Below are positions 1-64,000 of a stretch of 64,000 nucleotides of DNA, piece by piece. Each line of letters opens with the position of its first letter. Position 1 is the first letter of the stretch. Position numbers and translations under genes: made by a program. The DNA comes from Hymenobacter oligotrophus (GTDB lineage Bacteria > Bacteroidota > Bacteroidia > Cytophagales > Hymenobacteraceae): NCBI RefSeq assembly GCF_003574965.1, contig NZ_CP032317.1, positions 1,364,001-1,428,000 of the forward strand, written 5' to 3'. The notes below the pieces were generated by a model that saw only the letters and a program-made list of their open reading frames with translations, did not search any database and was not told the DNA's origin.

Positions 1-78
1 GGCGGCCTCGGCCGGGGCAAGCTGATGCAGCACATACAGCTCCAGCTGTCCTGATTCGATGTACTCCTCGATGTTCAC
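1..78 (-). CDS. Anti-sigma factor, N-terminal part (runs off window)
   Basis: This is the first 26 codons of a gene that continues beyond the left edge. It starts with GTG nine bases after the stop of the upstream sigma factor gene, so the two are almost surely co-transcribed. The translation begins MNIEEYIESGQLELYVLHQL, an opening typical of membrane-anchored RskA-type anti-sigma factors of Bacteroidota, which hold the partner sigma factor inactive. The membrane segment and C-terminal domain lie outside the window, so the assignment rests on this opening and on the gene order. Confidence 0.65.
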   Translation of the reverse strand, partial: MNIEEYIESGQLELYVLHQLAPAEAA

Positions 79-87
79 TGCTTTGGC

Positions 88-642
88 TTACCGAATCAGT
101 TTGGAAAGGACTTTAAGGGCGGCGCGGGCGCGGGTTTTCACGGTTCCTAGCGGCAAATTCAACTCTTCGGCTACCTCGCTTTGGGTGTAGCCTTCGAAAT
201 ACAGCTTATCGACGACTTGGCGCTGATCGGGCGTGAGCTGGTGCGTAAGCTCTTGCAGCCCGATATGCTCGGGGCGGAAAGTGGCTACGGCCGGCTGACG
301 TTCGGCGGGGCTATCGTCGAGAGGCTGTGTGCGAGTACCTACGCGGTACTGTCGCGAGCGGATTTTGTCGATGGCTAAATTTCGGCACACGTTCATCACC
401 CACGTAAAAAGCCGCCCCTTGGAGGCGTCGTAGCTCTGAAACGAATGCCAAATCTTAACCATTCCCTCCTGCAACACATCTTCGGCTTCTTCCTCGCGCC
501 GTACAATGCGCAGGATTACGCCGTAGAGCGCCGCCGAGTACTTGTCGTAAAACTCCGCCATGGCCGACTCATCGTGGGCTTTTAGCCGGGCGATAAGCTG
601 TTCTTCGGCGACGGAAGGCGGCTCGGGTAGCAAATTGGTCAC
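88..642 (-). CDS. ECF-type RNA polymerase sigma-70 factor (SigK-like)
   Basis: A 184-residue sigma factor that directs RNA polymerase to a dedicated regulon. Region 2 spans about residues 28-100, with the helix AEDVLQEGMVKIW followed by the GRLFTWVMNVCRNLAIDKIR stretch that contacts the -10 element. Region 4 lies at about 135-184 and ends in the helix-turn-helix SEVAEELNLPLGTVKTRARA. There is no region 1 or 3, as expected for an ECF sigma. The start codon is GTG. The gene is followed nine bases later by a probable anti-sigma gene, so activity is likely controlled by sequestration. The signal sensed cannot be told from the sequence. Confidence 0.9.
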   Translation of the reverse strand: MTNLLPEPPSVAEEQLIARLKAHDESAMAEFYDKYSAALYGVILRIVRREEEAEDVLQEGMVKIWHSFQSYDASKGRLFTWVMNVCRNLAIDKIRSRQYRVGTRTQPLDDSPAERQPAVATFRPEHIGLQELTHQLTPDQRQVVDKLYFEGYTQSEVAEELNLPLGTVKTRARAALKVLSKLIR

Positions 643-827
643 GGTGTGGTGCGAAATGCCCTGGGCCGCGCAGGTTCAGGCGCGCGGCATGGCGGTCAAA
701 AGTAATGACAAAACGGACACAGCAACATGCCCGCCGCCAACCCTAGCTAGCCGGCAGCAGTTATACGGAACTTGGCTTGCCAGGCGCCGTGCTTACTTTG
801 CTCCGCCTCGGCTTAACCCTCCGTGTC

Positions 828-2228
828 ATGCCCATCGAATCGTACAACCCCTATACCGATAAAGTGTTGCGGCGCTTTACGCCGCACAGCGCCGCGCAGG
901 TGGAGCGCATGCTGGCGCAAGCCGACAAAACCTTTCAGCAATGGCGCCGCACCACTTTTGCGGAGCGGGCCCAAGTGCTGCACCGCGCCGCCGCATTGCT
1001 GCGCGAACGGCAAGACGAGCTGGCCCGCCTCATGGCGCTGGAAATGGGCAAGCCCGTAACCGATGGCCGCGCCGAAGCACAGAAGTGCGCCCTTACCTGC
1101 GACTTTTACGCCGAGCACGCCGAGCACATGCTGCGCGACGAGCCGGTGCAAACCGAAGCCCGCCGCAGCTACATTGCGCACCAGCCCCTAGGTGCCGTGC
1201 TGGCCGTAATGCCCTGGAACTTCCCGCTGTGGCAGGTGGTACGCTTTGCCGCCCCGGCCCTGATGGCCGGCAACGTAGGCCTGCTGAAGCACGCCTCCAA
1301 CGTGCCGCAGTGCGCCTTGGCGCTGGAAAAAATCTTTCGCGACGCCGGCCTGCCGCAGGGCGGTTTCCGCACGCTGCTGCTCGAGTCGAAGGCGGTGGAG
1401 CCGCTGATTGCCGACGACCGCGTGCGGGCCGTTACGCTTACGGGCAGCGAAGGCGCCGGCAGCCAGGTGGCCGCCGCGGCTGGGCGCTACATCAAGAAAA
1501 CAGTGCTGGAGCTGGGCGGTTCCGATGCCTTTGTGGTGCTGGCCGACGCCGACCTAGGGCTGGCCGCCAAAACCGCCGCGCAGGCACGCATGATTAACGC
1601 GGGCCAAAGTTGCATTGCCGCCAAGCGCTTTGTGGTCGAGAAATCCGTGTCGGCCGAGTTCATGGACCGCATGCGTGAGCACCTGCAGGCCTACCGGGCC
1701 GGCGACCCGCTCGAGGAGCTGACTCAGTACGGCCCCCTCGCCCGCCCCGACCTCGCCGACGATCTAGCCCAGCAAGTGCAGAAATCGGTAGCCGCGGGAG
1801 CCAAAGTAGTGCTGCAAGGCGGGCAACCCAAAGCCGGTTCGGCTAGGTTTGCGCCCGTTATGCTCGCCAACGTAAAGCCCGGCATGCCCGCCTACGACGA
1901 AGAAACCTTCGGGCCCGTGGCCAGCATCCTGGTAGCCCGCGACGAGCAGCAGGCCATTCGGCTGGCCAACGACTCGCGCTTTGGCCTCGGTGCCGCCGTG
2001 TGGACGCGCGACGAGGAGCGCGGCCAACGTGTAGCCCGCGAGCTGGAGGCCGGCGCCGTGTTCGTGAATGCCTTGGTGAAATCGTCGCCGGAAATGCCCT
2101 TCGGTGGCGTGAAGAAGTCGGGCTACGGCCGCGAGCTTTCGCACCTAGGCATTAAAGAATTTGTGAATCAGAAAAGCATTTGGGTGGCCGGCGAAAAACC
2201 TGAAGCGGCTAAAAACTTGGCGGAGTAG
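828..2228 (+). CDS. NAD(P)-dependent aldehyde dehydrogenase, succinate-semialdehyde type
   Basis: A 466-residue aldehyde dehydrogenase that should oxidise an aldehyde to its acid, most likely succinate semialdehyde to succinate. The Asn of PWNFP is residue 131, the general-base Glu is E228 in LELGG, and the nucleophilic Cys is C262 in [12 protein letters not shown]. The phrase around C262 and the short N-terminus match the YneI/Sad subgroup better than long GabD. I chose the ATG at 828 over a TTG at 777, because the family begins near this Met and the extra 17 residues look like non-coding translation. The gene stands alone, so substrate preference is inferred from the subgroup only. Confidence 0.85.
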
Positions 2229-2335
2229 GCTTGCTGCCGCCCGCGAAATCGGCCTCGCTGCTCTGGCTGCTTTGTTCAAAGGCAACCTACGTGGCCGGGC
2301 TTATCCAATACGTGTGGCCTAGACCGAACTTCGTG

Positions 2336-3118
2336 CTAAGCGTAGCCCAGCAGGCGGTACACCACATATCCGGTTACTTCGTGCAGCAACACGCTCCATT
2401 GTTGTAGGGCCTCGGCGCTGGGCAGCAACCAATACGCAGGCGTGGCTTGCCGCTGCACCGTGAGGTAGCCCGCCGGAAACGGCGTTACCTGCAGCCCGGC
2501 TTTGTTGAAACCGCCCACCGCGCGGCGTTGGTGAAAAGCCGAAGTAACCAGCAGCAGGCGCGGCGTAGTGTTGGGCAAGCGCTGCCGCAGCAATGCTTTG
2601 GTGTTTTGGGCGTTTTCGCGGGTGTTGCGGCTCTGGGTTTCCAGCCAAATGTGTTGGGTGGGCACCCCCGAAAGGCGCAGCAGCACGGCCAAATCCTGGG
2701 CCTCGGTGCGTACGCCGGGCTTGGGCTGCAAGCTGCCCGAGCCGCCACTAATGATGATGCGCCGCGCGCGCCCGGCGCGGTACAGCCACAAGGCGTTGGT
2801 AAAGCGGTCGGCGCCACGGTCGAGGTACACGCGGTCGGCGGGGCCGCGCCGCGGGGCGGTAATGCCGGTGAGCAGCACGGCGGCATCGTAGGGCTGCGGC
2901 GCTAGCTGCGCGAGGCGCACGGGCGGCATTTCCCACAGCCGCAGCAGCTCGTTGCTCAGGCCTGGATTGGTGAAGACGACACCTAGGGCAACGGTTGCCA
3001 GCAGCAGCCGGTAGCGCCACTTGGCCGAGCGCGCCACCAAGGCAGCCACGGGCAGCAGCACGAGCCACAGCGCGGGCTCCAACACAAAATCAAGAAGCTT
3101 GGACAGGACGAAGAACAC
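2336..3118 (-). CDS. YdcF/ElyC family (DUF218) membrane protein
   Basis: A 260-residue protein with two hydrophobic segments in the first 50 residues, followed by a DUF218 domain. The domain shows the family signature IIISGGSGSL, then the ETQSRNTRENA block and LLVTSAFHQRRA. Relatives (ElyC, SanA, YdcF) act at the cell envelope; ElyC has been linked to peptidoglycan and undecaprenyl-lipid metabolism, but the reaction is not settled. The start appears to be GTG, since no ATG precedes the first membrane helix. The reading to the stop is intact. A specific substrate cannot be assigned. Confidence 0.8.
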   Translation of the reverse strand: MFFVLSKLLDFVLEPALWLVLLPVAALVARSAKWRYRLLLATVALGVVFTNPGLSNELLRLWEMPPVRLAQLAPQPYDAAVLLTGITAPRRGPADRVYLDRGADRFTNALWLYRAGRARRIIISGGSGSLQPKPGVRTEAQDLAVLLRLSGVPTQHIWLETQSRNTRENAQNTKALLRQRLPNTTPRLLLVTSAFHQRRAVGGFNKAGLQVTPFPAGYLTVQRQATPAYWLLPSAEALQQWSVLLHEVTGYVVYRLLGYA

Positions 3119-3166
3119 AGCCGCGAAAGTAGCCGAAACTTGCGCAGCCTAGGTGGCCGGCGCCCC

Positions 3167-3511: not shown

Positions 3512-3654
3512 AAAAGCATCCCTAGGTAGCAGGTAACATAGCCCTGAAGGCGGCTATACGCGCATTGTTTGCCGAGCGGCTAGGCAAAATGCACGCAACC
3601 GGCCCCAAGGCAGGCTTGGTTGCTAAGCCTCAGCAGGCCCGCGCCGCACCGGCA

Positions 3655-3700: not shown

Positions 3701-3721
3701 GGGCACGGCACCTAGGGCCGC

Positions 3722-5494: not shown

Positions 5495-5616
5495 GGGGAG
5501 GTGATGGAAAGTAGAAATGCAGGCAGCAAGGTAGCGGCCCTAGGTTGATTTTGAGCGGCAAGCCCAGCAAGGGCAGCAACGACGCGGGTTTGACCCGAGC
5601 CGTTGCGTGCGCGCGC

Positions 5617-8600
5617 CTATGCCAACTCGGGGTACCAACCGCGGCTAAGCTCGAGCAAGCGCTCCACGCTCAGCTCGCGCCGCTTAAAATCTTCGCCCAA
5701 CTGGAGCAGGTGCAGCAAGGGGCCGGTAGTTTGCTCGAGCAGCCGCTCGGGCGAGGTGAAGTGTTGAAAGTCTTTCAGTTCGAACTCCGACAGCACATCG
5801 GCATAAAACGCAGCGGCCACGCGGCGGTCGAGAATAATGAACGCGCCCCGATCGCGCTGGCGGCGCACTAGGCGGCCAAAACCTTGGCGCAGCTTCAGGC
5901 GAGCCGCGGGGCGGTAAAACTGCCCCCAGAAAGTCTCGTCGGCCTCGTAGCGCTTGCGGTGGCTGATAAGCGGCTCGCCCAGCGACGGAAACGGCAAGCG
6001 CCATACCACCACCTGCGACAACGTAGGCCCGGCAAAGTCCACGCCCGTCCACATGCGGTCGACACCCAGGAGCACGGTTTGCTCGACGCGCCGGAACCGC
6101 CGAATTTCCCACTGGCTGGCCCCGTTTTGCATCAGCAGCTCGATGTCGTGCTCGGCCAGGCGGGGCTCAAGCCAATCGGCGGCGTAGCGCATTTCCTCGT
6201 TGGAGGTAAACAGCACCAGCGTGCGGCCTTCAAGGGTAATCAGCAGCGGCAACAAGGTGCGCAATTGCGCCTCGCACCAGGCGCGGCGCTCCTGCGGCGG
6301 CGCGCTGGCCCTGAACATGGGCAGGTACGTAGGCACGCCGCCCAGCACCGGTTCGGCTTTGGGGTTGTCGTAGTCGAAAATGGGTAGTATGCGCTGCTCG
6401 GCCGCAAACGGCACACGCATATCTAGCAACTGCTTAAAGTAGCCTAGGTGGTTTTCGACGTAGAGCGTGGCCGAGGTAAACACCACCGTCCGAAACTGAT
6501 CGAACAGCGGCGTGGCCGGTTCGCCGCTCATGCGGCGTAAGGCGGCGCGGGCGGCCAACAGGCGTTTGGTGTACTGCTCGGAGGTTTCGTCGGAGGCTTG
6601 CTGCAGCGGCTCGCCGGTTTCGGGGTCGGGCGTGGCGCCTAGGTAAGGCCACAGCGCATAGGGCTGCCGCACCAGCTGCCAGCCCAGGCCGTTGGTTTCG
6701 GGCTCGCGCACCACCACCGGCACGTACTCGCGGCACGGAAACTCTTCGAGCAAACGCTCCAGCACTTCGGCCTGTCCTTCGGCTATTTCGGCAAAACGCT
6801 CGGTGCGGCGGCACAGGCGTTCGTCGTAGTTGCTGGCGCCTACATCGTCGTCGGGGTCGGTTGGGGCACCATCTTCGTCTTCGGCCAGGTTGATGTTCAG
6901 GGCTACCGCCAAGTGCCTGCGCACCTGCCCTAGGTGCTTGGCCGAGGTTTTCAGCGGGGCACTCAGCGGAGGCAGCGCCGCCACCAGTTCCCGGTGGAAG
7001 GGGCGCACCAACGGCGCGCGGCCGGGCTGCTCCACGCGCACGTTGTCGTGCCAGTGCGTCTCGCCGATCGGAAATGGCAGGGCGGCCGGCCGGCCGCCCT
7101 TGTTCTGGAACTGACTACTGACGCCACCTAGGGCTGCCAACGACTCCTGCAGCGGCACGGCGGCTTCGGTGAGGGCGTGCAAGGCGGTGCGCACGGCTTG
7201 GCGGCGGCGGTAGGGCGCGGCCTCAATGGCGTAGCGCATCCAAGCCGCATCGGCGGTTTGGCGGGCATCGAGGGCGGCGGGGGTTTCGCGCATCAGCTCG
7301 GCCACTTGTTCGAGCAGCGCTACTTTGGCGCCTAGCTCTTCCAGGCGGGCTTCTTCGAAGGCCTCGTAAGCGGCGCGGCTGGCGTCGTCGGGGCCGGGCT
7401 GATCGGCCGCGGGTACTTGCCGCCATAGGGCTTCTTCCTCGTCGCGCAGTCGCTCGCGCAGCTGGTTCAGGAAGGGCTCGGCGCGGCGCTGGGTTTTGGC
7501 GGGCGTATCGGCTTGCTCGGCCGTTTGCCGGGCGTTGCGGTTGGGCATGGGTTGGCCGTGCAGCAACGGCTCCAGCAGCTCGTCGTGCAGCTCGCGGGCA
7601 TCGAGGCTGCGGGCCAGCGCCGAACGAAAGTTGTCCGGAAAGCGGTCGGCTTCATCAACAACGCACACCGTGGCCCGCTCCACCACTTTCGGCGGCAGCA
7701 AGGCCAATTTGTGATGATTGACGATCAGCAGGTTGGCTTGTTCAGCGCGTAGGCGGTGGGCCGGGTATACGCAGGCTTTGCGGCCGGGCAAAGCGCCGTG
7801 GCGGCAAGCGCGGTCGGCGGTTACGCGCCGTAGTAGTTGCCGTAAGGCCGGGCCTAGCTGCGGATGGGCGCTCAATGGGCGGGCAATGCCTTCGGTTTCG
7901 CCTTCGGTATCGCGCAGGCGCAGGGCCAGGTAAAACCAGGCCAAGGCAGCCGGCCACTCGGCCCCGCGGCCCAGGCAATCGTCGAAGGCACGGCCCAAAG
8001 CTTCCACGCACAAGTAGCAGTTTTTGCCCTTGAGCGTAGCGGTGCGGATGGCCTTGTAGCGGGCCGTGCGGCGGCCATCGACCTCGCGCAGCAGGGCTGG
8101 CAGTTCGCCTTGGCGCATCTGCTCCTGCAGGTTTTTGGTGGAGGTAGCCACTACCACCAGGGCTTCGGGCGCGTGGCGTAAGTACTCCAACGCGGGCACC
8201 AGGTAGCCAAACGTTTTACCCGTACCCGTGCCGGCCTCAATGGCAAAAGCACCGCGGCGGCCCACTGCACGCGCTATAAAACGGGCATACTCCAGCTGCT
8301 GCGGGCGCGGCTGAAAGGGGTGTTTGCCGCTGCTCATGCGCTTGGCCAGCTGCTCGAACGCCTCCTCTACCTGCTGCTCCGATACGTCGCCTAGGCCCAA
8401 CTCGGGCGCGGCGCTGTCGTCGGCTTTGTCGCGCCAACGAGACAAGTAGTTGTTGAGCAACAGTGTCATTTGCTCGGGCTGCGGCCAGGCAGGTTGCGGA
8501 GGCGGCAGCGGCAGGCGGTTGGGCGCGTTGGGCTTGTCGCGGCGGGCGGTGTCGTCGCAGCAATCGGGTTGCTGGGCCAGGGCCTTCAGCAACCGAAAGG

Positions 8601-9282
8601 CGCGCAACTCGGGTCGGCGCGGTGCCAGGCTGATTACCGCATCGAGCAAGGTGTACCCTGGTAGCCACTGCTGGCCAGGTTGGCCTTGGGGCTGCAGCAA
8701 GCTCTCGAGCACGCGGCGCACGGCCCGGCGCATGGCATGCAGCATAAAGGGCAGCTGGGGCACGGCGCCGTCGTCGTTGCGCTTGGCATAGCCGAGCTTT
8801 TCGCTGACGGCTTTGTCCTGCGCTACCAGCTTTTCGAGCAGCTCATCGGCGTCGTCGAGTACTTCGTTGGGCAGGAAGAACGCCAGCAGCTCATCGAGCC
8901 CGACGCACATAGGCGGCTTAGCCATGCCGGCCAGCACGTGCTGCTCCAGCCACAGCCGCTCGGGCGAGGGTTGCCCGGCGCGGTCCATAATCAGCAACGC
9001 GTCAAAAGCACCTAGGGCCGCTTGGGCTTCTTCGGCCACTTCGGCCCAGGTGGGGGCCTCTTTTGCGCGGGCGTTGGCTACACCGCTGGCAGTACTTACG
9101 GCTGCGGAGTAGTCGCGCTCGGGGTTCAGCAGCCACTGCTGCACCTTGGCGCCGGGCTCAAGCGGCAGTACCCCTAGGTGCAACAGGCCGTGTTTGGTAT
9201 CGGGGCGGTAGGCGCCGGTGGCGAACAAATGCGCCACAGCTACCCGCGCCGAACGAACCGGACTCGTGAATAAAACTGCCAT
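5617..9282 (-). CDS. DinG/XPD-like Fe-S superfamily 2 helicase with N-terminal exonuclease-like domain
   Basis: A 1221-residue helicase. Walker A GTGTGKT is at about residue 349, and the DEAD box DEADRF at about 543. Four Cys for an iron-sulfur cluster are visible between them: KNCYLC near 422 and CRHG...CVYP near 493-505. Motifs of the second RecA domain follow (VVFTSATL, then LGVDRMWTGVDF and QGFGRLVRR). The first 200 residues keep the layout of a DnaQ-type DEDDh exonuclease seen in DinG proteins of Firmicutes, but the Asp-Glu pair of motif I is missing, so that domain is probably catalytically dead. Expected role: ATP-driven 5'-3' unwinding in repair or R-loop removal. The length is above the usual 700-950 residues. 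Confidence 0.85.
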   Translation of the reverse strand: MAVLFTSPVRSARVAVAHLFATGAYRPDTKHGLLHLGVLPLEPGAKVQQWLLNPERDYSAAVSTASGVANARAKEAPTWAEVAEEAQAALGAFDALLIMDRAGQPSPERLWLEQHVLAGMAKPPMCVGLDELLAFFLPNEVLDDADELLEKLVAQDKAVSEKLGYAKRNDDGAVPQLPFMLHAMRRAVRRVLESLLQPQGQPGQQWLPGYTLLDAVISLAPRRPELRAFRLLKALAQQPDCCDDTARRDKPNAPNRLPLPPPQPAWPQPEQMTLLLNNYLSRWRDKADDSAAPELGLGDVSEQQVEEAFEQLAKRMSSGKHPFQPRPQQLEYARFIARAVGRRGAFAIEAGTGTGKTFGYLVPALEYLRHAPEALVVVATSTKNLQEQMRQGELPALLREVDGRRTARYKAIRTATLKGKNCYLCVEALGRAFDDCLGRGAEWPAALAWFYLALRLRDTEGETEGIARPLSAHPQLGPALRQLLRRVTADRACRHGALPGRKACVYPAHRLRAEQANLLIVNHHKLALLPPKVVERATVCVVDEADRFPDNFRSALARSLDARELHDELLEPLLHGQPMPNRNARQTAEQADTPAKTQRRAEPFLNQLRERLRDEEEALWRQVPAADQPGPDDASRAAYEAFEEARLEELGAKVALLEQVAELMRETPAALDARQTADAAWMRYAIEAAPYRRRQAVRTALHALTEAAVPLQESLAALGGVSSQFQNKGGRPAALPFPIGETHWHDNVRVEQPGRAPLVRPFHRELVAALPPLSAPLKTSAKHLGQVRRHLAVALNINLAEDEDGAPTDPDDDVGASNYDERLCRRTERFAEIAEGQAEVLERLLEEFPCREYVPVVVREPETNGLGWQLVRQPYALWPYLGATPDPETGEPLQQASDETSEQYTKRLLAARAALRRMSGEPATPLFDQFRTVVFTSATLYVENHLGYFKQLLDMRVPFAAEQRILPIFDYDNPKAEPVLGGVPTYLPMFRASAPPQERRAWCEAQLRTLLPLLITLEGRTLVLFTSNEEMRYAADWLEPRLAEHDIELLMQNGASQWEIRRFRRVEQTVLLGVDRMWTGVDFAGPTLSQVVVWRLPFPSLGEPLISHRKRYEADETFWGQFYRPAARLKLRQGFGRLVRRQRDRGAFIILDRRVAAAFYADVLSEFELKDFQHFTSPERLLEQTTGPLLHLLQLGEDFKRRELSVERLLELSRGWYPELA

Positions 9283-9407: not shown

Positions 9408-10871
9408 ATGTGTCTTTCCGCTTCCCCTCTCCTTTCCGGCTTGTTGCTCACCGGAGCTTTGGCCGCGTGCTTGCAAAAGTCCGACAACTCTGCCGCCGAA
9501 ACGGCTGTTGTTCGGTCTGATTCTGAATCAGCAGTTGCTGCTTTGCCCGCGCAGGCCAGCCCCCTCACCGAAACCTTCGAGGCAGGCAGCAAAGGCTCGT
9601 ATGCCTCGGGGCAAGAGCAGCTGCCCTCGGGTACTTGGCTGCTCGATGATGCCCTGATTGGCACCTCCGAGCAAGACCACAAACGCGGCGACAAAGCCCT
9701 TCGCCTCCGCGGAAAAGGCCGCGCTCAAATGCGTTTCGACCTAGGCAGCGGCGCAGGCCGGGTGCGCGTGTTCAATGCCAGCTACGGGCGCGATGGCTCG
9801 GTGCGCTGGCAGCTGTGGCTCAGCACCGACCGCGGCCGCACCTGGCAACCCGCCGGCACCGAGGTGAAAGTTGAAGGCACCGGCATCACGACCGACGTGG
9901 CGGTAAACCGCCCCGGCCCTTTGCGGCTCGAAATTCGGAAAGTAGACGGTGGCGACGACCGCCTGAACATCGACGACTTTACCGTGGAGCCTTACCGCGG
10001 CGGCAGCGCACCCAGCGTGGCCACCACGCCCAGCAGTTCGGCCCAACCGAGCCGGACGCCGGCTGCTGCGCCGGCCCCAAACCGCTCAGGCAGCACCGGC
10101 ACCACCCGCCGCGACGACCCGCTTACCCTTGGCAACCCCAGCGGCGCCACCAGCAACCCTACGGCTTCGCCCAACAACTACCTGATGCAGAAGTCGCAGT
10201 TTGTGCTGAGCTACTCGCGCGACCGGGGCATTCCGAACTGGGTAATGTGGCACCTGAGCAAGGGCTGGATGGGCTCGGCCCCGCGCCAGGACGATTTCCG
10301 CCCCGATCCGGCCCTGCCCCGCGGCTGGTACCAGGTTACGCCCCGCTCCTACTCCGGCTCGGGCTTCGACCGAGGCCACAACTGCCCCTCCGCCGACCGC
10401 AGCTACGACCTGGACGATAACTCGGCCACCTTCCTGATGACGAACATGATTCCGCAGGCGCCCATGAACAACCAGCGCACCTGGAATAGCCTGGAAGAGT
10501 ACTCGCGCGACTTGGTAAAGGCCGGCCGCGAGGTGTACGTCATCATGGGCAGCTACGGCAAGGGCGGCACCGGCACCAACGGCCCCGCCACCACCCTCGA
10601 CCAAGGCCGCGTAACCGTGCCCAAGCGCGTGTGGAAGGTGCTGGTAGTATTGCCCGAAGGCGACAACGACCTGCAGCGCGTGGCCAGCGGCCAAGCTCGC
10701 CTGGTGGCTATCGACACGCCCAACGACAACTCCGTCGACCCGGATTGGAGCCGGTACCGCGTGAGCGTGGATGCCATTGAAAACGCCACCGGCCTCGACT
10801 TGCTCAGCAAGCTTCCTACCGAGGTACAGGAACGGCTCGAGGCGCAAGTCGATAACGGCCCTATTCGGTAG
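9408..10871 (+). CDS. DNA/RNA non-specific endonuclease lipoprotein (NucA/NUC1 family)
   Basis: A 487-residue exported nuclease. The signal peptide ends in the lipobox ALAAC, and the ATG at 9408 is chosen because it places this signal correctly; an upstream TTG at 9366 does not. Residues about 50-190 form an unassigned beta-rich domain, then a Ser/Thr/Pro linker, then the catalytic domain. The DRGH motif is D321-H324, and N355 and E363 follow at +31 and +39. Those are the spacings I recall for Anabaena NucA (H124, N155, E163). It should degrade single- and double-stranded DNA and RNA at the cell surface. A HIT-NuiA fusion 2.3 kb downstream is a candidate inhibitor. Confidence 0.9.
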   Translation: MCLSASPLLSGLLLTGALAACLQKSDNSAAETAVVRSDSESAVAALPAQASPLTETFEAGSKGSYASGQEQLPSGTWLLDDALIGTSEQDHKRGDKALRLRGKGRAQMRFDLGSGAGRVRVFNASYGRDGSVRWQLWLSTDRGRTWQPAGTEVKVEGTGITTDVAVNRPGPLRLEIRKVDGGDDRLNIDDFTVEPYRGGSAPSVATTPSSSAQPSRTPAAAPAPNRSGSTGTTRRDDPLTLGNPSGATSNPTASPNNYLMQKSQFVLSYSRDRGIPNWVMWHLSKGWMGSAPRQDDFRPDPALPRGWYQVTPRSYSGSGFDRGHNCPSADRSYDLDDNSATFLMTNMIPQAPMNNQRTWNSLEEYSRDLVKAGREVYVIMGSYGKGGTGTNGPATTLDQGRVTVPKRVWKVLVVLPEGDNDLQRVASGQARLVAIDTPNDNSVDPDWSRYRVSVDAIENATGLDLLSKLPTEVQERLEAQVDNGPIR

Positions 10872-10886
10872 CCGCCTAGGTACTCG

Positions 10887-12055: not shown

Positions 12056-12142
12056 GGGTAAACGCGGCGGTTTCGGCCTGCCTGGTGTTTGCGGCGGTAC
12101 GCCCACCTAGGCAGGCCAACCGTAGCATACGCAAAAGCGGAC

Positions 12143-13138: not shown

Positions 13139-13187
13139 GGTAAAACAGGGCGTTGCTGCGCCCCGAAAAGGTTGTTTCAGGTGGGCC

Positions 13188-14209: not shown

Positions 14210-14266
14210 CCTCGTACTTGCCATTATGTGGGGGCTGCACCACCTAGGGCCGTGCAGCTGGGGTGC

Positions 14267-14803: not shown

Positions 14804-14918
14804 CGAACAGGCATCAGCAAATATACGAAACGGCAACCACTGTGCGCAAGAGCCCGCCGCAAACGCAGCCCGGCCGCAGCGGGCCCTAGGTGGTGCGCCC
14901 GTGCCGGGGCGGAGGCAG

Positions 14919-15863: not shown

Positions 15864-15931
15864 GGCAAACTCGGCTGGGTGGAACTACGAACGGCGAAGG
15901 TAGGCTGGTGCGGGCGGCGGCCCCTGCGGCC

Positions 15932-47406: not shown

Positions 47407-47490
47407 CGGCTCAACTGCCCTAGGTGGTTATGCGTTGAACTGCATCAGGCACCGCGGCCGCCCTAGGTCGCGCCAACGTATTTTGCGCCT

Positions 47491-48198: not shown

Positions 48199-48355
48199 CC
48201 CCAACGGCCAGTGCCCTTGCGGGCGGCAACCATCGTTGTGCGGCAGGGCATGTTACTGTTGGGTTATCCGCCTAGGTGCTTTTCGCGTAGGTAGTGCATT
48301 TGGTGCTCCGCGTCGCCGTGCGGGTGGGGCGCCATTGCCCCACTTTTGCTTCTTT

Positions 48356-53190: not shown

Positions 53191-53226
53191 CTTGCTGGCA
53201 CCTAGGGCCAAGCCCTAGGTCAGCGA

Positions 53227-55554
53227 CTAGCTCTGCTCCTCGGGCACCACGGGCGGCACGGGGCCCGGCGTAAGCGGGTCGGGCTGCGCCAGGGCTAGGG
53301 CGGGCTCGGCCGTGCCCTCCAGCAGCTCGTCGGTTTCGTCGTCCGGCAACACCACTTCTTCGCCCGCAATCAAGCTGTCCTCCGAGGGCGACACGGTTTC
53401 GCCTTCGGGCACACGCGCCATAGGCATGGCGGCCAAAAAGTCCTGGTACAAGTCGGTATCCTGCACCAAGCCGTAGTTCTTTAGGTAAAACTCCTTGTGC
53501 AGGTTGAACACCGGCTCCCCATCCTCGGGCTGGCGGCGGATGTAGGCCCCGTCTTCGCGCATGAGGTAGGTGTTGTAGTTGTCGCGCAGGTTGAAGTAGA
53601 GGATGTTGATGGCCTCGCGCAACAATTGCGGGTTCACGATCAGGAACAAGGCCTCGATGCGGCGGTCGAAGGAGCGCACCATCACGTCGGCCGAGCCCGA
53701 GTACACCTTGGGCTGGCCGCCGTGGTGGAAGTAAAACAAGCGCGTGTGCTCGAGGTATTCGCCCACAATGCTGCGCACTTCTATGTTCTCGCTCAGGCCT
53801 GGGCGGCCCGGGCGCAGGCAGCAAATGCCGCGCACAATCAGCCGGATGGGCACGCCCGCCTTGGAGGCCTTGTACAGCTCGTCGATGATGTCGCGGTCTT
53901 CCAACGAGTTCATCTTCATCACGATGCCCGACGGCAGGCCGCGTTTGGCGTTGCGCCCCTCATCGCGAATCAGCTGGATGAGCTGCTGGCGCATGTCCTT
54001 GGGGGCCGTAATCAGGTACTCGTAGTCGTCGGGCTGCGAGTGGCCGGTAATTACGTTGAAGAACTCCGACACGTCGTGGCCATACACGTCGTTGGTGGTC
54101 AGCAGGCTTACGTCGGTGTAAAAGCGCGAGGTTTGCTCGTTGTAGTTGCCCGAGCCAATGTGCACGTAGCGCGTCACCTTTTCGCCTTCCTTCCGGATGA
54201 TCATGGCCATTTTGGTGTGCGTCTTGTACTTGCTCACGCCGTAGATGACAAAGCAGCCCGCCTTTTCGAGCTTAGCCCCCTCACGGATGTTGCGTTCCTC
54301 ATCGAAGCGCGCCTTTACCTCGAACAGCACTGATACGTGCTTGCCGTTTTCGGCCGCTTTCAGCAACGCGGCCGTCACGCGCGAGTCGTCGGCGAGGCGG
54401 TAAATGGTTTGCTTGATGCCCAGCACGTGCGGATCTTCGGCGGCTTGCTCCAGCAGCTTCACCACCGGCTCGATGGAGTTGTACGGGTGGTGCAGCAGCA
54501 CGTCGTGGTGCTTCAGGTACTCAAATAGGTTCTCGTCGGCACCTAGGGGCAGGCTTAGTGGCTGCACGGGAGCCAGCAAGCGCGGCAACTTGTCGCGGAA
54601 GCTGGGGTGGCGCACAATCTGATTTACGCCGCGCAGGTCAATCAGCGAGCTGATGACGAACACGTTGCCGTTGTCAATCTTCCAGCGTTCCTTCAGCACC
54701 TGCATCAGGATGTGCGAGGCATCGGGCTCCACCTCCAGGCGCACCACGCGGCCGCGCTTGCGGGTTTTCAGCCCCTGCTGTATCTCCTGAATAAAGTCTA
54801 CGTCGATGTCGTCGGATTCCTCCAGCGTAAAGTCGCCGTTGCGGGTGATGCGGAACAGCGTGGCCGACACGATATCGACGTTGCGAAACAGCTTCCCTAG
54901 GTTGGCGCGCACGATTTCTTCGATGGGCACGAAGATGACCTTGTCCTTGCGCGTGAGCTCGAAAAAGCGCGCCAGGTTGGCCGGTATCTGTACGAACGTA
55001 AGGCGCTCCTGCCCTTCCTCGGGGCCTTCGCCGCTCATGCGCGTTACCACGCCAAAAATGAGCAGCTGGTTCATCATCAGCGGAAAGCCGTGGTACGAGT
55101 CGTATACCATCGGCGTGAGCAGCGGAAACACCGTGTTCTTGAAGTAGCCGTCGGCCTTCTTCTGCTCCACCTCCGTCAGTTCATCCACGCGCAAAATATC
55201 GAAGCCGTTGCGCGCAAACAGCGGCCGTAGCTCCTGCAGGTACGTTTGCGACTGATCGTGCACAAAGCGGTGCGCGAAGTCGAGCAGCTTGCGCCGGAAC
55301 GGCAATTCGCGCAGCCCGGAGTAATCGACGCGCACCTTCCCGTAGTCGAGATAATTATACAACGAGCCCACCCGAATCATGAAGAACTCATCGAGGTTGG
55401 AGGCCGTGATGCCCAAAAAGCGCAGCCGGTCGAGCACGGTGCGGCCCGAGTCGCGGGCCTGGTCGAGCACGCGGTAGTTAAACCGTAACCAGCTCAGGTC
55501 GCGGCTGATGTATTTACTCTTGCGGATGAGGTCCGACGACTTAAACAGTTTCAT
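53227..55554 (-). CDS. ppk1: Polyphosphate kinase 1
   Basis: A 775-residue enzyme that makes inorganic polyphosphate from ATP. It opens with SRDLSWLRFNYRVLDQA, the PPK1 N-terminal block. The autophosphorylated His is in YVHIGSGNYNE, and the second active-site block is RGICCLRPG near residue 580. Known PPK1s have about 690 residues; the extra 70 C-terminal residues are an acidic, Pro-rich disordered tail (with EVVLPDDETDELLEG). It is convergent with a Ppx/GppA gene. The ATG at 55554 is in the expected place. Confidence 0.97.
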   Translation of the reverse strand: MKLFKSSDLIRKSKYISRDLSWLRFNYRVLDQARDSGRTVLDRLRFLGITASNLDEFFMIRVGSLYNYLDYGKVRVDYSGLRELPFRRKLLDFAHRFVHDQSQTYLQELRPLFARNGFDILRVDELTEVEQKKADGYFKNTVFPLLTPMVYDSYHGFPLMMNQLLIFGVVTRMSGEGPEEGQERLTFVQIPANLARFFELTRKDKVIFVPIEEIVRANLGKLFRNVDIVSATLFRITRNGDFTLEESDDIDVDFIQEIQQGLKTRKRGRVVRLEVEPDASHILMQVLKERWKIDNGNVFVISSLIDLRGVNQIVRHPSFRDKLPRLLAPVQPLSLPLGADENLFEYLKHHDVLLHHPYNSIEPVVKLLEQAAEDPHVLGIKQTIYRLADDSRVTAALLKAAENGKHVSVLFEVKARFDEERNIREGAKLEKAGCFVIYGVSKYKTHTKMAMIIRKEGEKVTRYVHIGSGNYNEQTSRFYTDVSLLTTNDVYGHDVSEFFNVITGHSQPDDYEYLITAPKDMRQQLIQLIRDEGRNAKRGLPSGIVMKMNSLEDRDIIDELYKASKAGVPIRLIVRGICCLRPGRPGLSENIEVRSIVGEYLEHTRLFYFHHGGQPKVYSGSADVMVRSFDRRIEALFLIVNPQLLREAINILYFNLRDNYNTYLMREDGAYIRRQPEDGEPVFNLHKEFYLKNYGLVQDTDLYQDFLAAMPMARVPEGETVSPSEDSLIAGEEVVLPDDETDELLEGTAEPALALAQPDPLTPGPVPPVVPEEQS

Positions 55555-55986: not shown

Positions 55987-56115
55987 TGTACTGATGTTGA
56001 TTTTTGTGGCGGGCGTTGGCAACAGCCGCGCGGTGCGCGTGGCTCGGCGCGAAGTGCTGCGCCCGCCCGCCGTTCGCACCACCTAGGGTTTTACTCAGCA
56101 TGCCGAATGCCCAAC

Positions 56116-56157: not shown

Positions 56158-58149
<1,992 letters not shown>

Positions 58150-58306: not shown

Positions 58307-58358
58307 GCGCCCCCTAGGTGCCTCATGGTCACTGCCCAAGCCGGCACCTAGGGGGCGC
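58307..58358. repeat. Inverted repeat with CCTAGG in both arms
   Basis: A perfect inverted repeat with 16-base arms (58307-58322 and 58343-58358) flanks a 20-base loop, 17 bases beyond the stop of the T9SS cargo gene. Each arm contains a CCTAGG site. It precedes the T-rich terminator. Confidence 0.85.
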
Positions 58359-58374: not shown

Positions 58375-59778
58375 CTACCGAATTACGAGCTTGCGCACCA
58401 GCGTGCCCTTGTTGGTTTCGGCCTGCAGATTGTAGAGCCCGGCTTTGTGCTGGCTCAGGTCGATGAGCACCTCCTGCGTGGTGGCCGCCGTGAGTTGCAA
58501 CGCTGCGCGGTACACCTCCCGACCTAGGGCATCGGTTACCTGCAGGCGGCTTACGCGCAGGTTAGCTTCGCCCAAGCTCAGTTGAAACACGCCGTTGGCG
58601 CTGGGGTTCGGAAAGGCCTTCACGGCGGCATCGGTAGCCAGGCTTACCCGCGTGGAGGAAATTACGGAATTGAGCTTGAACATGCCGCCGGTGCTGGCGC
58701 TGCCCGCTTCGCCGGTAAAGCCGCCGGTGTAGCCAATGGAGGGGCTTAGCATATCGACTTCGAACTGGTACTTGCCGATGTCCATGTTCGTCCAGGTTTG
58801 GCCGCCGTCGCGCGAAATGGAGCTGCCGAAATCGTTGATGCTGCTCGCCTGGCGCACGTTCTGCCCCACGCTGATGTAGGTGTTCGGCAATCCGGGCACG
58901 GCATCGAGCCCGAATACGCGCAGCGGGCCGGTGTAAGTAAGGGCGGTGCTGGTGGCGCCGCCGTCGGCGGTGCTGGCCAGCCCAAAGCCCGTGTTCAGCA
59001 AGCCGCGCTGGGCATCGGTGAAGGCGATGTTGAGGATGGCATTGGGCACGGGCGTGTTGTACGCCGCCCAAGTGGCGCCGCGGTCGGTCGATTTTAGAAG
59101 CCGGGCGTTGGTGTTGTTGGCCCCGCTCAGGGTGCTAAGCCAAATGGTGTTACCCAACGCGAAATAGGTGCCCGTCATGCCGTACTCTGAGGCGCTGACC
59201 GAGGTAGGCGCATTGCTCACGCGCGCCCAAGTGGTGCCGCCGTTGGAGGTGGTGTAAATCTCGAACTGCGCGCCCGATCCGCCGGGGTTTGGGTCGCCGA
59301 ACGCCACGCCCTGGTTGGCGTCGAAAAAGTGCACCACGTTGGGGTAGGCATCGTCGCCGCTGAAGGTGGCAGTGGCCTGGCGCGTCCAAGTTTGGCCGCC
59401 GTTGGTGGTTTTGTAAATGCCCGGGGCCGTGGCGGTTTCTTCGGCCGGGTAGGCGGCTACCCAGGCAGTGTTGGCATCCACGGCCGTAATGTTGGCCACG
59501 CTCAGCCCGGCGGGCAAGCCGTTCAGCAAGCCGCCCGTCCAGGTATTGCCGCCGTCGGTCGAGCGGGCGTAGCGGTTTACCAGCGGGTCTTCCACGTTTT
59601 CGCTCAGCAACACCCAAACCGTGGAGGCGTTTACGGCCAGCACCTGATCGACGAGGTAATTGGCGGGCGCTACGTTCGACCCCAAGTTTTGCGTAATCCA
59701 AAAGGGGGTATTGTTCTGGCCTAGGGCGGCGGTGCTCAGCAGCAGCGCGGCGCCCAGCGAGAGTAAAAAGTGTTTCAT
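58375..59778 (-). CDS. Secreted BNR-repeat protein with T9SS type A sorting domain
   Basis: A 467-residue secreted protein. The signal peptide ends at LGQ near residue 20. The body has repeated BNR/Asp-box motifs (STDGGNTWTG, TTNGGQTWTR, TSNGGTTWAR, STDRGATWAA, SRDGGQTWTN), which form a sortilin-like beta-propeller. The last 75 residues are the type IX secretion sorting domain, starting AFPNPSANGVFQLSL and ending with a basic VRKLVIR. It therefore leaves the cell through T9SS and may be anchored to the surface. The ligand or substrate is unknown. The ATG at 59778 gives the signal peptide. Confidence 0.93.
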   Translation of the reverse strand: MKHFLLSLGAALLLSTAALGQNNTPFWITQNLGSNVAPANYLVDQVLAVNASTVWVLLSENVEDPLVNRYARSTDGGNTWTGGLLNGLPAGLSVANITAVDANTAWVAAYPAEETATAPGIYKTTNGGQTWTRQATATFSGDDAYPNVVHFFDANQGVAFGDPNPGGSGAQFEIYTTSNGGTTWARVSNAPTSVSASEYGMTGTYFALGNTIWLSTLSGANNTNARLLKSTDRGATWAAYNTPVPNAILNIAFTDAQRGLLNTGFGLASTADGGATSTALTYTGPLRVFGLDAVPGLPNTYISVGQNVRQASSINDFGSSISRDGGQTWTNMDIGKYQFEVDMLSPSIGYTGGFTGEAGSASTGGMFKLNSVISSTRVSLATDAAVKAFPNPSANGVFQLSLGEANLRVSRLQVTDALGREVYRAALQLTAATTQEVLIDLSQHKAGLYNLQAETNKGTLVRKLVIR

Positions 59779-60116
59779 AGCGGAGATGCGTGAGTGGATG
59801 TTGCGCCCTGCGCGGTGCAGGTTCGGGCGAAGCTGCAACTGCCGGCAAAGCGATTGAAAGTACGGATTATTATATTCTGCAACTCATATGAAACAGGATA
59901 TTGTCAATTGCCCGGCAACGATGATATTAGGCGTAGGATGTAGCAAGCCCCTAGGTGCGCACGGGCACCCAAAGCCGTGGGAACGGCTCATCTAGGTTTC
60001 GACGAGTTTGGCTTCCTCGCGCGGCTTGAACTTGCGGCGCTGGCACAGCTGGAGCTGGAGGCAACGCACGCCGGCCGCACCGATGCGAGTGGCTCAAGGG
60101 CTGAGCGTTGCGGTTT
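59779..60116. other. Intergenic region between T9SS cargo gene and hydrolase gene
   Basis: A 338-base region. The part 59850-59940 is AT-rich and should contain the promoter of the T9SS cargo gene. A CCTAGG site lies at 59950. No intact gene is seen; short reading frames here have no start in a useful place. Confidence 0.5.
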
Positions 60117-61193: not shown

Positions 61194-61628
61194 ATGGCTA
61201 ACGTTTCCAGAACCCGGGAGCCGGGCGTGTTGGTTGATGAATTCGCTTTAACTGACGCCTCCCCCAACGACGATGCTCTCGACCTTGGCAGTGGCGCACC
61301 GCAGCCCGCAGCCGAAAACCTCGATGCCTCGCTGTGCCCGCTGTGCACGGAGCCGCTGGGCTGGCACGACACCCCTTGCCTGAGCACGCAACCAGCTACT
61401 GCCTCGGCCAGCAACCCCACTTTTCACTATTCTCCAGCTGCCCTTTTCGCCTTCGACCTAGGGCAAGCGGTGCAAGCAGCCTATAACAACCGGGCGCACC
61501 GCATCATCTGGCGCGGACAAGTAAAGGAACGCCACCCGGCCACCGGCTGGGTGCAGCGCATAAACGTGTACCGCCTCAACGACGGTTACTGGGACTGCTA
61601 CCGCGAAGACGACCTGCAAGTTGCCTAA
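61194..61628 (+). CDS. Hypothetical protein with a small Cys cluster, 144 aa
   Basis: I do not recognise this protein. The first 45 residues are charged and disordered. At about 48-62 there is a CPLC pair followed by a His and a third Cys (WHDTPC), possibly a small zinc knuckle. The C-terminal half (about 85-144) is probably a compact beta domain with RIIWRGQVKERHP, INVYRLNDGYWDCYREDDL and several aromatic residues. It contains one CCTAGG read as Leu-Gly. The ATG at 61194 is the only good start. Confidence 0.6.
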   Translation: MANVSRTREPGVLVDEFALTDASPNDDALDLGSGAPQPAAENLDASLCPLCTEPLGWHDTPCLSTQPATASASNPTFHYSPAALFAFDLGQAVQAAYNNRAHRIIWRGQVKERHPATGWVQRINVYRLNDGYWDCYREDDLQVA

Positions 61629-61869
61629 CAACTCGCCAAACAGCATCACCGCCCTAGGTGCAGCCAAGTTGCGCCGGCCAGGCAGCCACACTTGCAGCTA
61701 AACATAGCAGGCCCCTAAACCCAACCGCAGCTCCGCCACCCGTACTAGGCTGGCTGCACCGCGTTTGCTGCGGGCCTCGCAAATACTCGCGCAAAGCTGT
61801 GAGGCAGCTGGCTTTTGGTGGAAAATAGTCGAATTGCTATTTAGCAAGCAGGAATTCTTATTTTCGCCC

Positions 61870-62313: not shown

Positions 62314-62620
62314 TGGCTGCAGCCATTCGCTCCTGCCAGCGTGCCGTAACCCTTGACGCCTAGGTCCGAATGGTGTCGGGTGCCAAGCTGCCCTAGGTGC
62401 CTACCCAGTGCAGAGCTCGTTCGAGGGAAAGACTTGGTTAGCCTTCACTAAGGGAATGGCCAACGTGGAGGCCACACTCATCATGTAAGGTTTTTGGCAA
62501 CCACAGCAAGCCTCCTAACAGCCGCTTGGATACCGCGCTGCTGATGCAACTGCCCAGGCACAGCCAACCCGCTATGACTTAAGGGTTCCTTTTTGTATTG
62601 TTGAGGTCAATTCCGGCGTT
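62314..62620. other. Intergenic region between two hypothetical genes
   Basis: A 307-base stretch. It contains two CCTAGG sites (62359 and 62392), 33 bases apart. No gene, strong hairpin or clear promoter is visible. Confidence 0.4.
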
Positions 62621-63151: not shown

Positions 63152-63274
63152 CACAGCTTTTGAATACGAGCCGGCGGCCTTTAGAAGCAGCCCCGCTTGC
63201 TTCCAAAGACTAGAACACCGTCGCCTAGGGCCGCTTGGTCCGCGTGTGCGGTAAGCAACACGTTAGCAAAAACA

Positions 63275-63605: not shown

Positions 63606-63637
63606 AAATCAGCCACTCCGCTGTGCAGCAAAGTGGC
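63606..63637 (-). terminator. Hairpin after the tRNA-Arg gene
   Basis: An imperfect inverted repeat followed leftward by a T-rich run lies just beyond the 3' end of the tRNA-Arg gene and may end the tRNA transcript. Confidence 0.5.
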
Positions 63638-63647
63638 CGATTGTAAG

Positions 63648-63724
63648 TGGCACCCCCGGCACGATTCGAACGTGCGACCGTCTGCTTAGAAGGCAGATGC
63701 TCTATCCAGCTGAGCTACGGGAGC
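63648..63724 (-). tRNA. tRNA-Arg (anticodon TCT)
   Basis: A full cloverleaf is readable on the minus strand. The D arm is GCTCAGCTGGATAGAGC, the anticodon loop is CTTCTAA between TCTGC and GCAGA, and the T arm is standard (GTTCGAATC loop). The 3' CCA is encoded. The acceptor begins with a G-T pair, which is unusual but tolerable. It decodes AGA. Confidence 0.93.
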
Positions 63725-63859
63725 TTATGTTGTGCTATACGCGGATTTCAAACGCAAGTAGTTGCTGCAACGACCGGAACATACTGTTGCTTGCAGCAGC
63801 CACGAAGCATCGAAAGCCGCCCACCCCACAAGGCGGGCAGACGGCTTCCGAAAAAGTAG

Positions 63860-63933
63860 TCGGGGTGGCAGGATTCGAACCTGCGGCCTCCTGCTCCCAA
63901 AGCAGGCGCGATACCGGGCTACGCTACACCCCG
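63860..63933 (-). tRNA. tRNA-Pro (anticodon TGG)
   Basis: A full cloverleaf is readable on the minus strand. The acceptor stem is CGGGGTG with CACCCCG, the anticodon loop is TTTGGGA between CCTGC and GCAGG, and the T loop is GTTCGAATC. CCA is not encoded. It decodes CCN codons for proline. Confidence 0.95.
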
Positions 63934-63961
63934 AAAGCGGCAACAGACGCTGCTGCGCTAT

Positions 63962-63993
63962 AAAAAATCAGGCTTCCCGAAGTACGGGAAGCC
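63962..63993 (-). terminator. Terminator of a gene beyond the right edge
   Basis: A hairpin with 9-base arms (63971-63979 and 63985-63993), followed leftward by a run of T. It ends a leftward transcript whose gene lies outside the window. Confidence 0.8.
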
Positions 63994-64000
63994 CGTGGCG

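Follow-up and report, generated by a model that had tools for sequence, protein, structure and literature searches.

An iterated asymmetric octamer with a CCTAGG core as a candidate lineage-specific recognition word in Hymenobacter oligotrophus and its relatives

Restriction leads to the avoidance of the restricted sites. As a rule, Chi sites follow the direction of replication and are conserved between close relatives. To our knowledge, the function of HIP1 (highly iterated palindrome 1) is still open, in part because most cyanobacteria have it. The iterated words of cyanobacteria are HIP1, GCGATCGC, and the alternate HIPs GGCGCC, rCCGGy, GCsGC and GGGATCCC; PMC1939737 gives GCCTAGGC as absent from E. 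coli (0 copies vs 151 expected). Here, the hexamer CCTAGG was analysed in a stretch of 64,000 bases (59.97% GC) of Hymenobacter oligotrophus (NZ_CP032317.1, positions 1,364,001 to 1,428,000), referred to as the window, together with its whole genome (labelled G000) and other genomes of the family. At a rough probability of 0.55, the CCTAGG sites represent an asymmetric recognition word that is specific to the lineage and under selection or biased transmission. No description of the CCTAGG word in Hymenobacter or relatives, and no methylome, motif or uptake-sequence work on Hymenobacter, was found in the open-licence literature.

The window contained exactly 82 copies of CCTAGG, as the preliminary description had counted by hand, against 11.0 and 10.4 expected under first-order and second-order Markov models, respectively. 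An order-4 model gave 68.6 and is uninformative, since its sub-words are inflated by the CCTAGG sites themselves. The remaining 15 NCTAGN hexamers were present in 0-13 copies each, none of them raised to the level of CCTAGG. In the whole genome (4,188,814 bases in 4 contigs) 5678 copies were counted, corresponding to 1.36/kb, so that gross over-representation at about one per kb, as known for HIPs, holds for the 4.19-Mb genome as a whole. A genome-wide count near expectation, or an equal frequency of the other NCTAGN hexamers, had been named beforehand as a reason to abandon special selection on this word; neither was found, and the over-representation of CCTAGG was confirmed as real. The reversed control word GGATCC had 67 copies in G000; the 144 word-poor genomes described below are the better yardstick, since some members of the family seem to avoid GGATCC. 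With simple gene calls made for this analysis, 54 window sites were coding (48 read as xxC-CTA-GGx, 6 as CCT-AGG and none in the remaining phase) and 28 were intergenic or at gene edges, the intergenic DNA of the window being 8281 bp; the earlier figures of 48 Leu-Gly, 7 Pro-Arg and 27 outside genes were in close agreement. The site density in G000 was 2.86/kb in intergenic and 1.10/kb in coding DNA. About 0.7 Mb of G000 was read in detail.

What is enriched is the asymmetric octamer ACCTAGGG, and the palindrome CCTAGG is no more than its core. ACCTAGG followed by A, C or G was read on one strand at 75 of the 82 window sites (36 on the plus and 39 on the minus strand), and exact ACCTAGGG at 45; a ACCTAGGT reading was found at none of the 82. 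In 668 kb of G000, ACCTAGGG was observed 513 times vs 11.2 expected (46-fold), ACCTAGGC 277 times vs 23.8 and ACCTAGGA 57 times vs 5.2, and the palindromic ACCTAGGT 36 times vs 11.7 (3-fold). Neither CCCTAGGG (10 vs 10.8) nor GCCTAGGG (21 vs 22.9) was enriched there (both 1-fold), nor was CCTAGG without a preceding A and without a following T. Octamer variants at the inner positions were mostly near or below expectation in the same 668 kb, with ACCTAGAG (19 observed, 5.4 expected), ACTTAGGG (10, 6.0) and ACCTCGGG (46, 30.8) as exceptions. Of the intergenic sites in three related genomes, 49/78, 58/85 and 40/71 read ACCTAGGG, and 14, 22 and 13 read ACCTAGGC, respectively. C was the second-best last base of ACCTAGGG, and weak flank preferences widened the octamer to about gcACCTAGGGC. 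The likeness to HIP1 that had been suggested for the palindrome is thus upheld for density and sporadic occurrence and is lost for symmetry, the enriched word being asymmetric. Flanks differed within the CCTAGG-rich genomes: ACCTAGGG prevailed in the group of G000, G004 and G025, ACCTAGGT and AAAGCTAGGT in G079, GCCCTAGGGC in G058 and mixed flanks in G137; the forms favoured in G079 (ACCTAGGT) and G058 (GCCCTAGGGC) are palindromic. The window sites are listed below, with the strand that carries the octamer flank as the site orientation; 7 of the 82 are without this flank and have no strand.

1187..1192, -, CCTAGG with octamer flank
1553..1558, +, CCTAGG with octamer flank
2144..2149, +, CCTAGG with octamer flank
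2982..2987, +, CCTAGG with octamer flank
3148..3153, -, CCTAGG with octamer flank
3521..3526, -, CCTAGG with octamer flank
3711..3716, +, CCTAGG with octamer flank
5539..5544, -, CCTAGG with octamer flank
6443..6448, -, CCTAGG with octamer flank
6638..6643, -, CCTAGG with octamer flank
6929..6934, -, CCTAGG with octamer flank
7127..7132, +, CCTAGG with octamer flank
8390..8395, no strand, CCTAGG without octamer flank
9011..9016, +, CCTAGG with octamer flank
9173..9178, -, CCTAGG with octamer flank
9740..9745, +, CCTAGG with octamer flank
10875..10880, -, CCTAGG with octamer flank
11622..11627, -, CCTAGG with octamer flank
12106..12111, +, CCTAGG with octamer flank
12618..12623, -, CCTAGG with octamer flank
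13187..13192, -, CCTAGG with octamer flank
13648..13653, +, CCTAGG with octamer flank
14243..14248, +, CCTAGG with octamer flank
14885..14890, -, CCTAGG with octamer flank
15931..15936, -, CCTAGG with octamer flank
17347..17352, -, CCTAGG with octamer flank
18121..18126, +, CCTAGG with octamer flank
18982..18987, +, CCTAGG with octamer flank
19412..19417, -, CCTAGG with octamer flank
21490..21495, +, CCTAGG with octamer flank
22522..22527, -, CCTAGG with octamer flank
23012..23017, +, CCTAGG with octamer flank
26222..26227, +, CCTAGG with octamer flank
26297..26302, -, CCTAGG with octamer flank
28291..28296, -, CCTAGG with octamer flank
30921..30926, +, CCTAGG with octamer flank
31313..31318, -, CCTAGG with octamer flank
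31796..31801, no strand, CCTAGG without octamer flank
32393..32398, -, CCTAGG with octamer flank
32850..32855, +, CCTAGG with octamer flank
33460..33465, -, CCTAGG with octamer flank
33798..33803, -, CCTAGG with octamer flank
34561..34566, +, CCTAGG with octamer flank
36315..36320, +, CCTAGG with octamer flank
37535..37540, no strand, CCTAGG without octamer flank
38065..38070, -, CCTAGG with octamer flank
39548..39553, +, CCTAGG with octamer flank
40822..40827, +, CCTAGG with octamer flank
41563..41568, +, CCTAGG with octamer flank
42115..42120, +, CCTAGG with octamer flank
42943..42948, +, CCTAGG with octamer flank
43817..43822, no strand, CCTAGG without octamer flank
44012..44017, +, CCTAGG with octamer flank
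46401..46406, -, CCTAGG with octamer flank
46609..46614, -, CCTAGG with octamer flank
47032..47037, +, CCTAGG with octamer flank
47313..47318, no strand, CCTAGG without octamer flank
47419..47424, -, CCTAGG with octamer flank
47462..47467, -, CCTAGG with octamer flank
48271..48276, -, CCTAGG with octamer flank
48550..48555, +, CCTAGG with octamer flank
49517..49522, +, CCTAGG with octamer flank
49922..49927, -, CCTAGG with octamer flank
50647..50652, -, CCTAGG with octamer flank
51424..51429, +, CCTAGG with octamer flank
51667..51672, -, CCTAGG with octamer flank
53201..53206, +, CCTAGG with octamer flank
53214..53219, -, CCTAGG with octamer flank
54542..54547, +, CCTAGG with octamer flank
54896..54901, -, CCTAGG with octamer flank
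56082..56087, +, CCTAGG with octamer flank
56342..56347, +, CCTAGG with octamer flank
58313..58318, -, CCTAGG with octamer flank
58347..58352, +, CCTAGG with octamer flank
58523..58528, +, CCTAGG with octamer flank
59720..59725, no strand, CCTAGG without octamer flank
59950..59955, -, CCTAGG with octamer flank
61457..61462, +, CCTAGG with octamer flank
61653..61658, -, CCTAGG with octamer flank
62359..62364, -, CCTAGG with octamer flank
62392..62397, -, CCTAGG with octamer flank
63224..63229, no strand, CCTAGG without octamer flank

The sites are spaced more evenly than chance. Variance/mean ratios in 2-kb bins were 0.65, 0.68 and 0.77 in G000, G004 and G025, values as low being reached by 0, 0 and 6 per 1000 random placements, respectively, and five control palindromes gave 1.02-1.28. 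When the coding sites of G000 were fixed and the intergenic ones reshuffled, the ratio was 0.96 ± 0.07 vs 0.65 observed; the coding opportunities for the word were themselves clustered (1.22). Gaps shorter than 100 bp numbered 47 vs 82.1 ± 7.9 in G000 and 42 vs 64.6 ± 6.9 in G025, and in 5-kb and 20-kb bins the ratios were 0.73 and 0.86 for G000 and 0.62 and 0.45 for G004. Such evenness should not be expected from independent mutation. The orientation bias was not significant in any of three genomes, with about 0.5 Mb taken from each (275:314, 277:309 and 237:249; p = 0.12, 0.20 and 0.62), and in the genes of 188 kb of G000 the octamer was sense 78 times and antisense 78 times. Single samples varied (e.g. 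10:22 at 3.5 Mb of G000), and at 12 places on the G000 chromosome no consistent relation of orientation to GC skew was seen, the skew being small and the test accordingly weak.

The codons around the sites were compared as the preliminary description had proposed. For Leu between xxC and GG, the CTA share was 82/89 for xAC..GGG and 70/116 for xAC..GGC, vs 22/149 for non-A..GGC; for non-A..GGT, where the octamer lies on the opposite strand, it was 193/228. The Gly codons of the non-A class were GGT:GGC = 228:149, vs 69:331 when non-C precedes Leu. The synonymous shift of Leu and Gly codons is thus a joint one, confined to places where the two codons spell out the octamer on one strand or the other. 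Codon or dipeptide usage was rejected as the cause because the density is higher between genes, the two orientations are equal and the joint shift is limited to the octamer; the Leu-Gly phase is a consequence of synonymous freedom and not the cause of the enrichment.

Gain and loss were estimated from 468 kb of G000 aligned with the counterparts in G004 (427,839 aligned bases, 87.5% identity) and G025 (329,982 aligned bases, 86.2% identity). The state common to two genomes was taken by parsimony as the older state of the third, and at 12-14% divergence some of these states are wrong. CTG changed to CTA inside C_GG in 12/39, 17/51 and 5/32 cases in G000, G025 and G004, vs 100/2599, 163/2842 and 25/2267 elsewhere, respectively, and the transversion from CTC to CTA was raised as well (4/14 pooled in the C_GG context vs 56/2842 elsewhere). 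Conversely, CTA reverted to CTG in that context in 7/166, 5/178 and 41/203 cases vs 23/80, 8/65 and 34/91 in other contexts, and 20/479 copies of the word (pooled) had lost their first C, vs 360/3443 before other Leu codons. Fisher tests on gains and losses gave p from 0.007 to 3e-9. Retention of the whole hexamer in a first 188-kb alignment was 94/111 vs 72% for anagrams in G000 and 94/126 vs 69% in G025. Mapping between relatives, another proposal of the preliminary description, thus placed gains above and losses mostly below the matched controls, with fewer losses at two of three measured positions; more than one kind of mutation is involved, and the process is directed largely towards the intact word. 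In these 468 kb of G000, the site density was 1.16/kb in genes common to the three genomes and 0.77/kb (12 sites in 15.7 kb) in genes found in neither relative.

One set of 150 family genomes was used to count CCTAGG, GCTAGCCC and CCTACCCC, the latter two on both strands. Abundance of CCTAGG is an on/off trait: six genomes were rich (G000 5678, G004 5325, G025 6212, G058 7530, G079 5949 and G137 8806 copies) and the other 144 had 54-876. Three were rich in GCTAGCCC (G031 3433, G036 3800 and G049 3569; next genome 587), and eight in CCTACCCC (G052 4602, G089 4591, G123 2816, G113 2219, G091 2204, G103 1521, G119 1047 and G145 1019; next genome 525), the abundance of CCTACCCC being more graded than that of the other words. 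Middling counts were found in G137 (587 and 525 for the other two words) and in G149 (876 CCTAGG, 375 and 521). Seventeen genomes, all in genera g1 and g5, were rich in one word (at least 1019 copies), and none of the 150 was rich in two of the three. All three words contain CTA, and both thousands of copies and dialects with a common core are features of uptake sequences. GCTAGCCC and CCTACCCC are asymmetric as counted, GCTAGCCC being built around the palindromic GCTAGC. In a tree of one gene, pcrA, from 30 genomes, G000, G025 and G004 were grouped and G079 stood elsewhere, and one clade held all three words (CCTAGG in G058 and G137, CCTACCCC in G052, GCTAGCCC in G049, G036 and G031); because the rich genomes are scattered on the tree, CCTAGG richness was gained, or lost, on at least two or three independent occasions. 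In small samples, site positions were not kept where the word differed (1/10, 1/9, 0/5, 0/13 and 0/5), and site-by-site conversion between dialects was not seen. Where the word was the same, positions were kept in 3/10 cases (G058 vs G137), and in the GCTAGC group in 13/31 (G031 to G036) and 9/26 (G031 to G049). In our reading, a recognition word exists here in three dialects that differ by lineage.

Other iterated words, built on a CTA core, were first seen in samples of 20-80 kb from family members. One of them, CCTACC, had in 23.6 kb a density of 2.71/kb in Hymenobacter profundi (0.69 expected) and of 2.67/kb in H. citatus (0.78 expected). GGGCCCC was strongly iterated in G081 (47 vs 8.9 expected in 18.5 kb) and is perhaps a further word without the CTA core. 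GTCCACCA, GACATTGCC and AGAACA/CGTAGA were rejected as further words and taken as repeats of a HAMP-repeat gene near pcrA; the window carries at 39711-43598 (minus strand) a chemotaxis transducer of 1295 amino acids (Aer2-like) with tandem repeats at about 41245-43007, probably HAMP domains, and these repeats account for false iterated words in samples near pcrA. Separately, GGATCC was near-absent (0-21 copies per genome) in 22 of the 150 genomes, all of genus g5, where CCCGATCG was nearly absent too, and was present in tens to hundreds of copies in the other family genomes; there is strong avoidance of GATC-type sites in part of genus g5.

On the reading of the sites as copies of a recognition word, double-stranded DNA with intact ACCTAGGG would gain an advantage in selection or transmission, by which the word would be kept chromosome-wide; a protein would read it in either orientation, and a change of its specificity between lineages would let the old word decay and a new one accumulate. 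Codon usage or simple mutation bias fits poorly because of the joint codon shift, the transversion gains, the mostly reduced loss and the even spacing. Several results weigh against the recognition word. In most of the family, 133 of 150 genomes, none of the three words is abundant, and the CTC codons in the C_GG context are few (14). Protection of the word is not uniform, since its second C was lost (CTA to TTA/TTG) about as often (5/166 in G000, 6/203 in G004 and 13/178 in G025) as in other CTA codons (3/80, 3/91 and 3/65, respectively). Retention in G004 (94/125, 188-kb alignment) was not above the 77% of anagrams, and CCTAGG reverted there to CCCAGG/CCTGGG in 53/295 cases, vs 10/252 in G000 and 7/286 in G025, so that upkeep of the word may be relaxed in G004 despite its high copy number. 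The deficit of short gaps was not significant in G004 (65 vs 75.4 ± 7.5), and the variance/mean ratios of G025 were 1.04 in 5-kb and 2.24 in 20-kb bins, being dominated by two site-free stretches. A weak test of whether unconverted Leu codons with favoured flanks lie nearer to other sites gave p = 0.10, and the same test with unfavourable flanks p = 0.03. Finally, no reading protein was found in the searches of methyltransferase families and of the pilus ATPase given below. Two side observations concern the same genomes: reversion of NCTAGG to NCCAGG was frequent in G004 in all contexts (6/31 non-C cases), as a Vsr-like repair enzyme might produce, and the stretches without CCTAGG on contig C7 of G025 (about 295.3-307.3 kb and 315.8-333.3 kb; 12 and 17.5 kb) are perhaps recent islands.

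More tentatively, and at somewhat less than even odds, Hymenobacter-like bacteria may mark their chromosomes by means of a so far undescribed system that reads DNA sequence and depends on neither a methylase nor a pilus; the mark would be an asymmetric octamer at even spacing. The specificity of the system would evolve in dialects (ACCTAGGG, GCTAGCCC, CCTACCCC and others), and at each switch thousands of old words would be erased and new ones written, all within the divergence of a single genus.

As the sub-mechanism behind the recognition word we favour, while regarding it as doubtful, an uptake-like one without a type IV pilus, in which competent cells would import DNA of the local dialect and recombination would spread the word. 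The dialects with a CTA core parallel the eight dialects with a CTG core of the DNA uptake sequences (DUS) reported in PMC3630211, and an asymmetric word without significant orientation bias, its even spacing and its intergenic excess agree with uptake. So do the secondary contigs C2 and C3 of G000 (64-65% GC), which may be recent arrivals: they had 1 and 0 sites in their first 20 kb, respectively, where about 27 are expected at the chromosomal density. The gene of the DNA channel ComEC, consistent with uptake, was found in 150/150 genomes and therefore does not discriminate. The type II/IV secretion ATPase (PF00437), by contrast, was found full-length in 3 of the 150 genomes and as short partial matches above the cut-off in three more. 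The 17 word-rich genomes yielded no type IV pilus ATPase above the cut-off; per genome, 12 out of some 25-45 initial candidates were scored, and pilins were not searched. The excess of one-mismatch words per perfect site, with the last position left out, was 0.11, 0.39 and 0.12 (0.78, 1.28 and 0.65 with it included), vs about 2.0 for the uptake sequence listed in PMC1939737; this comparison is weak evidence because the word lengths differ. The many family genomes rich in no word also speak against uptake, and the open-licence literature on natural transformation or competence in Hymenobacter consisted of LexA and SOS work, no uptake data being found for the family.

Somewhat unlikely is a HIP-like word that owes its origin and upkeep to methyl-directed mismatch repair acting with an orphan DNA methyltransferase, the mechanism proposed for alternate HIPs. 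Its density is the same (about 1.4/kb), near relatives replace the word sporadically in both cases, the model in PMC4390886 expects saturation at about one word per 1000 nucleotides, and the one-mismatch excess of 0.11-0.39 resembles the 0.30 of HIP1 in PMC1939737. Yet CCTACCCC and ACCTAGGG are non-palindromic, unlike the ordinary target of a type II methylase, and no cognate methyltransferase was found in every word-rich genome within the families PF01555, PF00145, PF02086, PF02384 and PF07669. With 18 genomes searched per family (nine of the 17 word-rich genomes for all five families, G036 and G049 for two and six for none), none of the five was common to the six CCTAGG-rich genomes. Of the five families, G000 carried PF02384 only (one gene), apart from a PF07669 match below the threshold, and G025 carried PF01555 only (one gene). 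No pair among 16 methylase-like open reading frames from the six CCTAGG-rich genomes (not every match fetched) exceeded 34% identity, and an all-against-all comparison of 25 open reading frames that included these 16 yielded no common candidate. The proposals that CCTAGG might be a methylation site and have a matching orphan methylase accordingly found no support in the five-family search.

That the octamer is bound by a protein for chromosome organisation or repair, with sites needed every few hundred bases, is rather unlikely. The even spacing, the shortage of gaps under 100 bp in G000 and G025 (two genomes out of three) and the occurrence of sites in coding and intergenic DNA in both orientations would suit it; against it, the specificity must change within the close-species clade of G058, G137, G052 and G031/G036/G049, and orthologous positions were not kept, in the small samples above, when the word changed.

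That the octamer is a Chi-like signal for a recombination enzyme of the RecBCD/AddAB type is improbable: it is an asymmetric, GC-rich octamer of strict specificity, but orientation with replication was not found in the three genomes, where the strand bias was not significant and the assignment of replichores was weak owing to the small GC skew.

Most improbable is context-dependent mutation bias alone, e.g. deamination of methylcytosine at CCCAGG without repair, for although the central transition from CCCAGG/CCTGGG was the commonest precursor and loss product in G000 (12/21 gains, 10/37 losses) and the second C was lost at the ordinary rate, transversion gains were raised too, the first C was kept more than in controls, the even spacing is at odds with independent mutations, the CCCAGG hexamer was hardly depleted in G000 (70 vs 79 per 100 kb), and by the 78:78 ratio of sense to antisense octamers the C on either strand would have been changed relative to the A flank. 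Very-short-patch repair or deamination, considered from the CCCAGG excess among the alternatives, is weakened by the transversion gains, the first-position retention and the spacing; one-mismatch neighbours of CCTAGG were not depleted in the word-rich samples. The repair bias put forward in the preliminary description is likewise disfavoured by the transversion gains, the loss reduced at two of three positions and the mutual avoidance of the sites.

Two further genes of the window are recorded here. The DinG-like helicase at 5617-9282 (minus strand) was 95% identical to a protein of Solirubrum puertoriconensis MC1A, its next matches being three Hymenobacter records with 43-60% identity, which places the genome near Hymenobacter, and the open reading frame of 590 amino acids at 3722-5494 (minus strand) had no NCBIfam match at E 0.001.

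The octamer provides a second, independent bacterial group in which an iterated word is switched on or off and changes its identity between close genomes, a pattern that makes gene-presence comparison and bench tests feasible. The 17 word-rich genomes among 150 form a panel for finding the reading protein, and in them the word may mark native vs recently acquired DNA. If the uptake mechanism is true, these would be the first uptake-sequence-like dialects in Bacteroidota known to us.

Compared with the known systems, the octamer is neither a standard HIP/methylase pair nor an uptake sequence of the Neisseria type, because none of the five methylase families is common to the six CCTAGG-rich genomes and no pilus ATPase above the cut-off was found in the word-rich ones. 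It resembles HIPs in a genome-wide density near 1-2/kb, in sporadic replacement of the word among relatives (PMC4390886) and in a small one-mismatch excess, and differs from them in its asymmetry, in the non-palindromic words of its relatives and in the lack of a common methylase among the five families. Neisseriaceae uptake sequences likewise have thousands of copies and dialects with a three-base core (PMC3630211), no orientation bias and some even spacing (PMC1939737), but they are 10-12 bp long vs 8 bp in the Hymenobacter family, where the word is on or off within one genus and is accompanied by no pilus ATPase above the cut-off in word-rich genomes. Chi sites are also asymmetric GC-rich octamers found chromosome-wide; the present octamer differs in having no significant strand bias and other words in near relatives. 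The sites of AvrII, BlnI and XmaJI are the same hexamer, CCTAGG (PMC1939737), from which the octamer differs as the enriched unit, the hexamer without the A/T flank not being enriched. We file the octamer system beside the HIP and uptake-sequence kinds, not in them.

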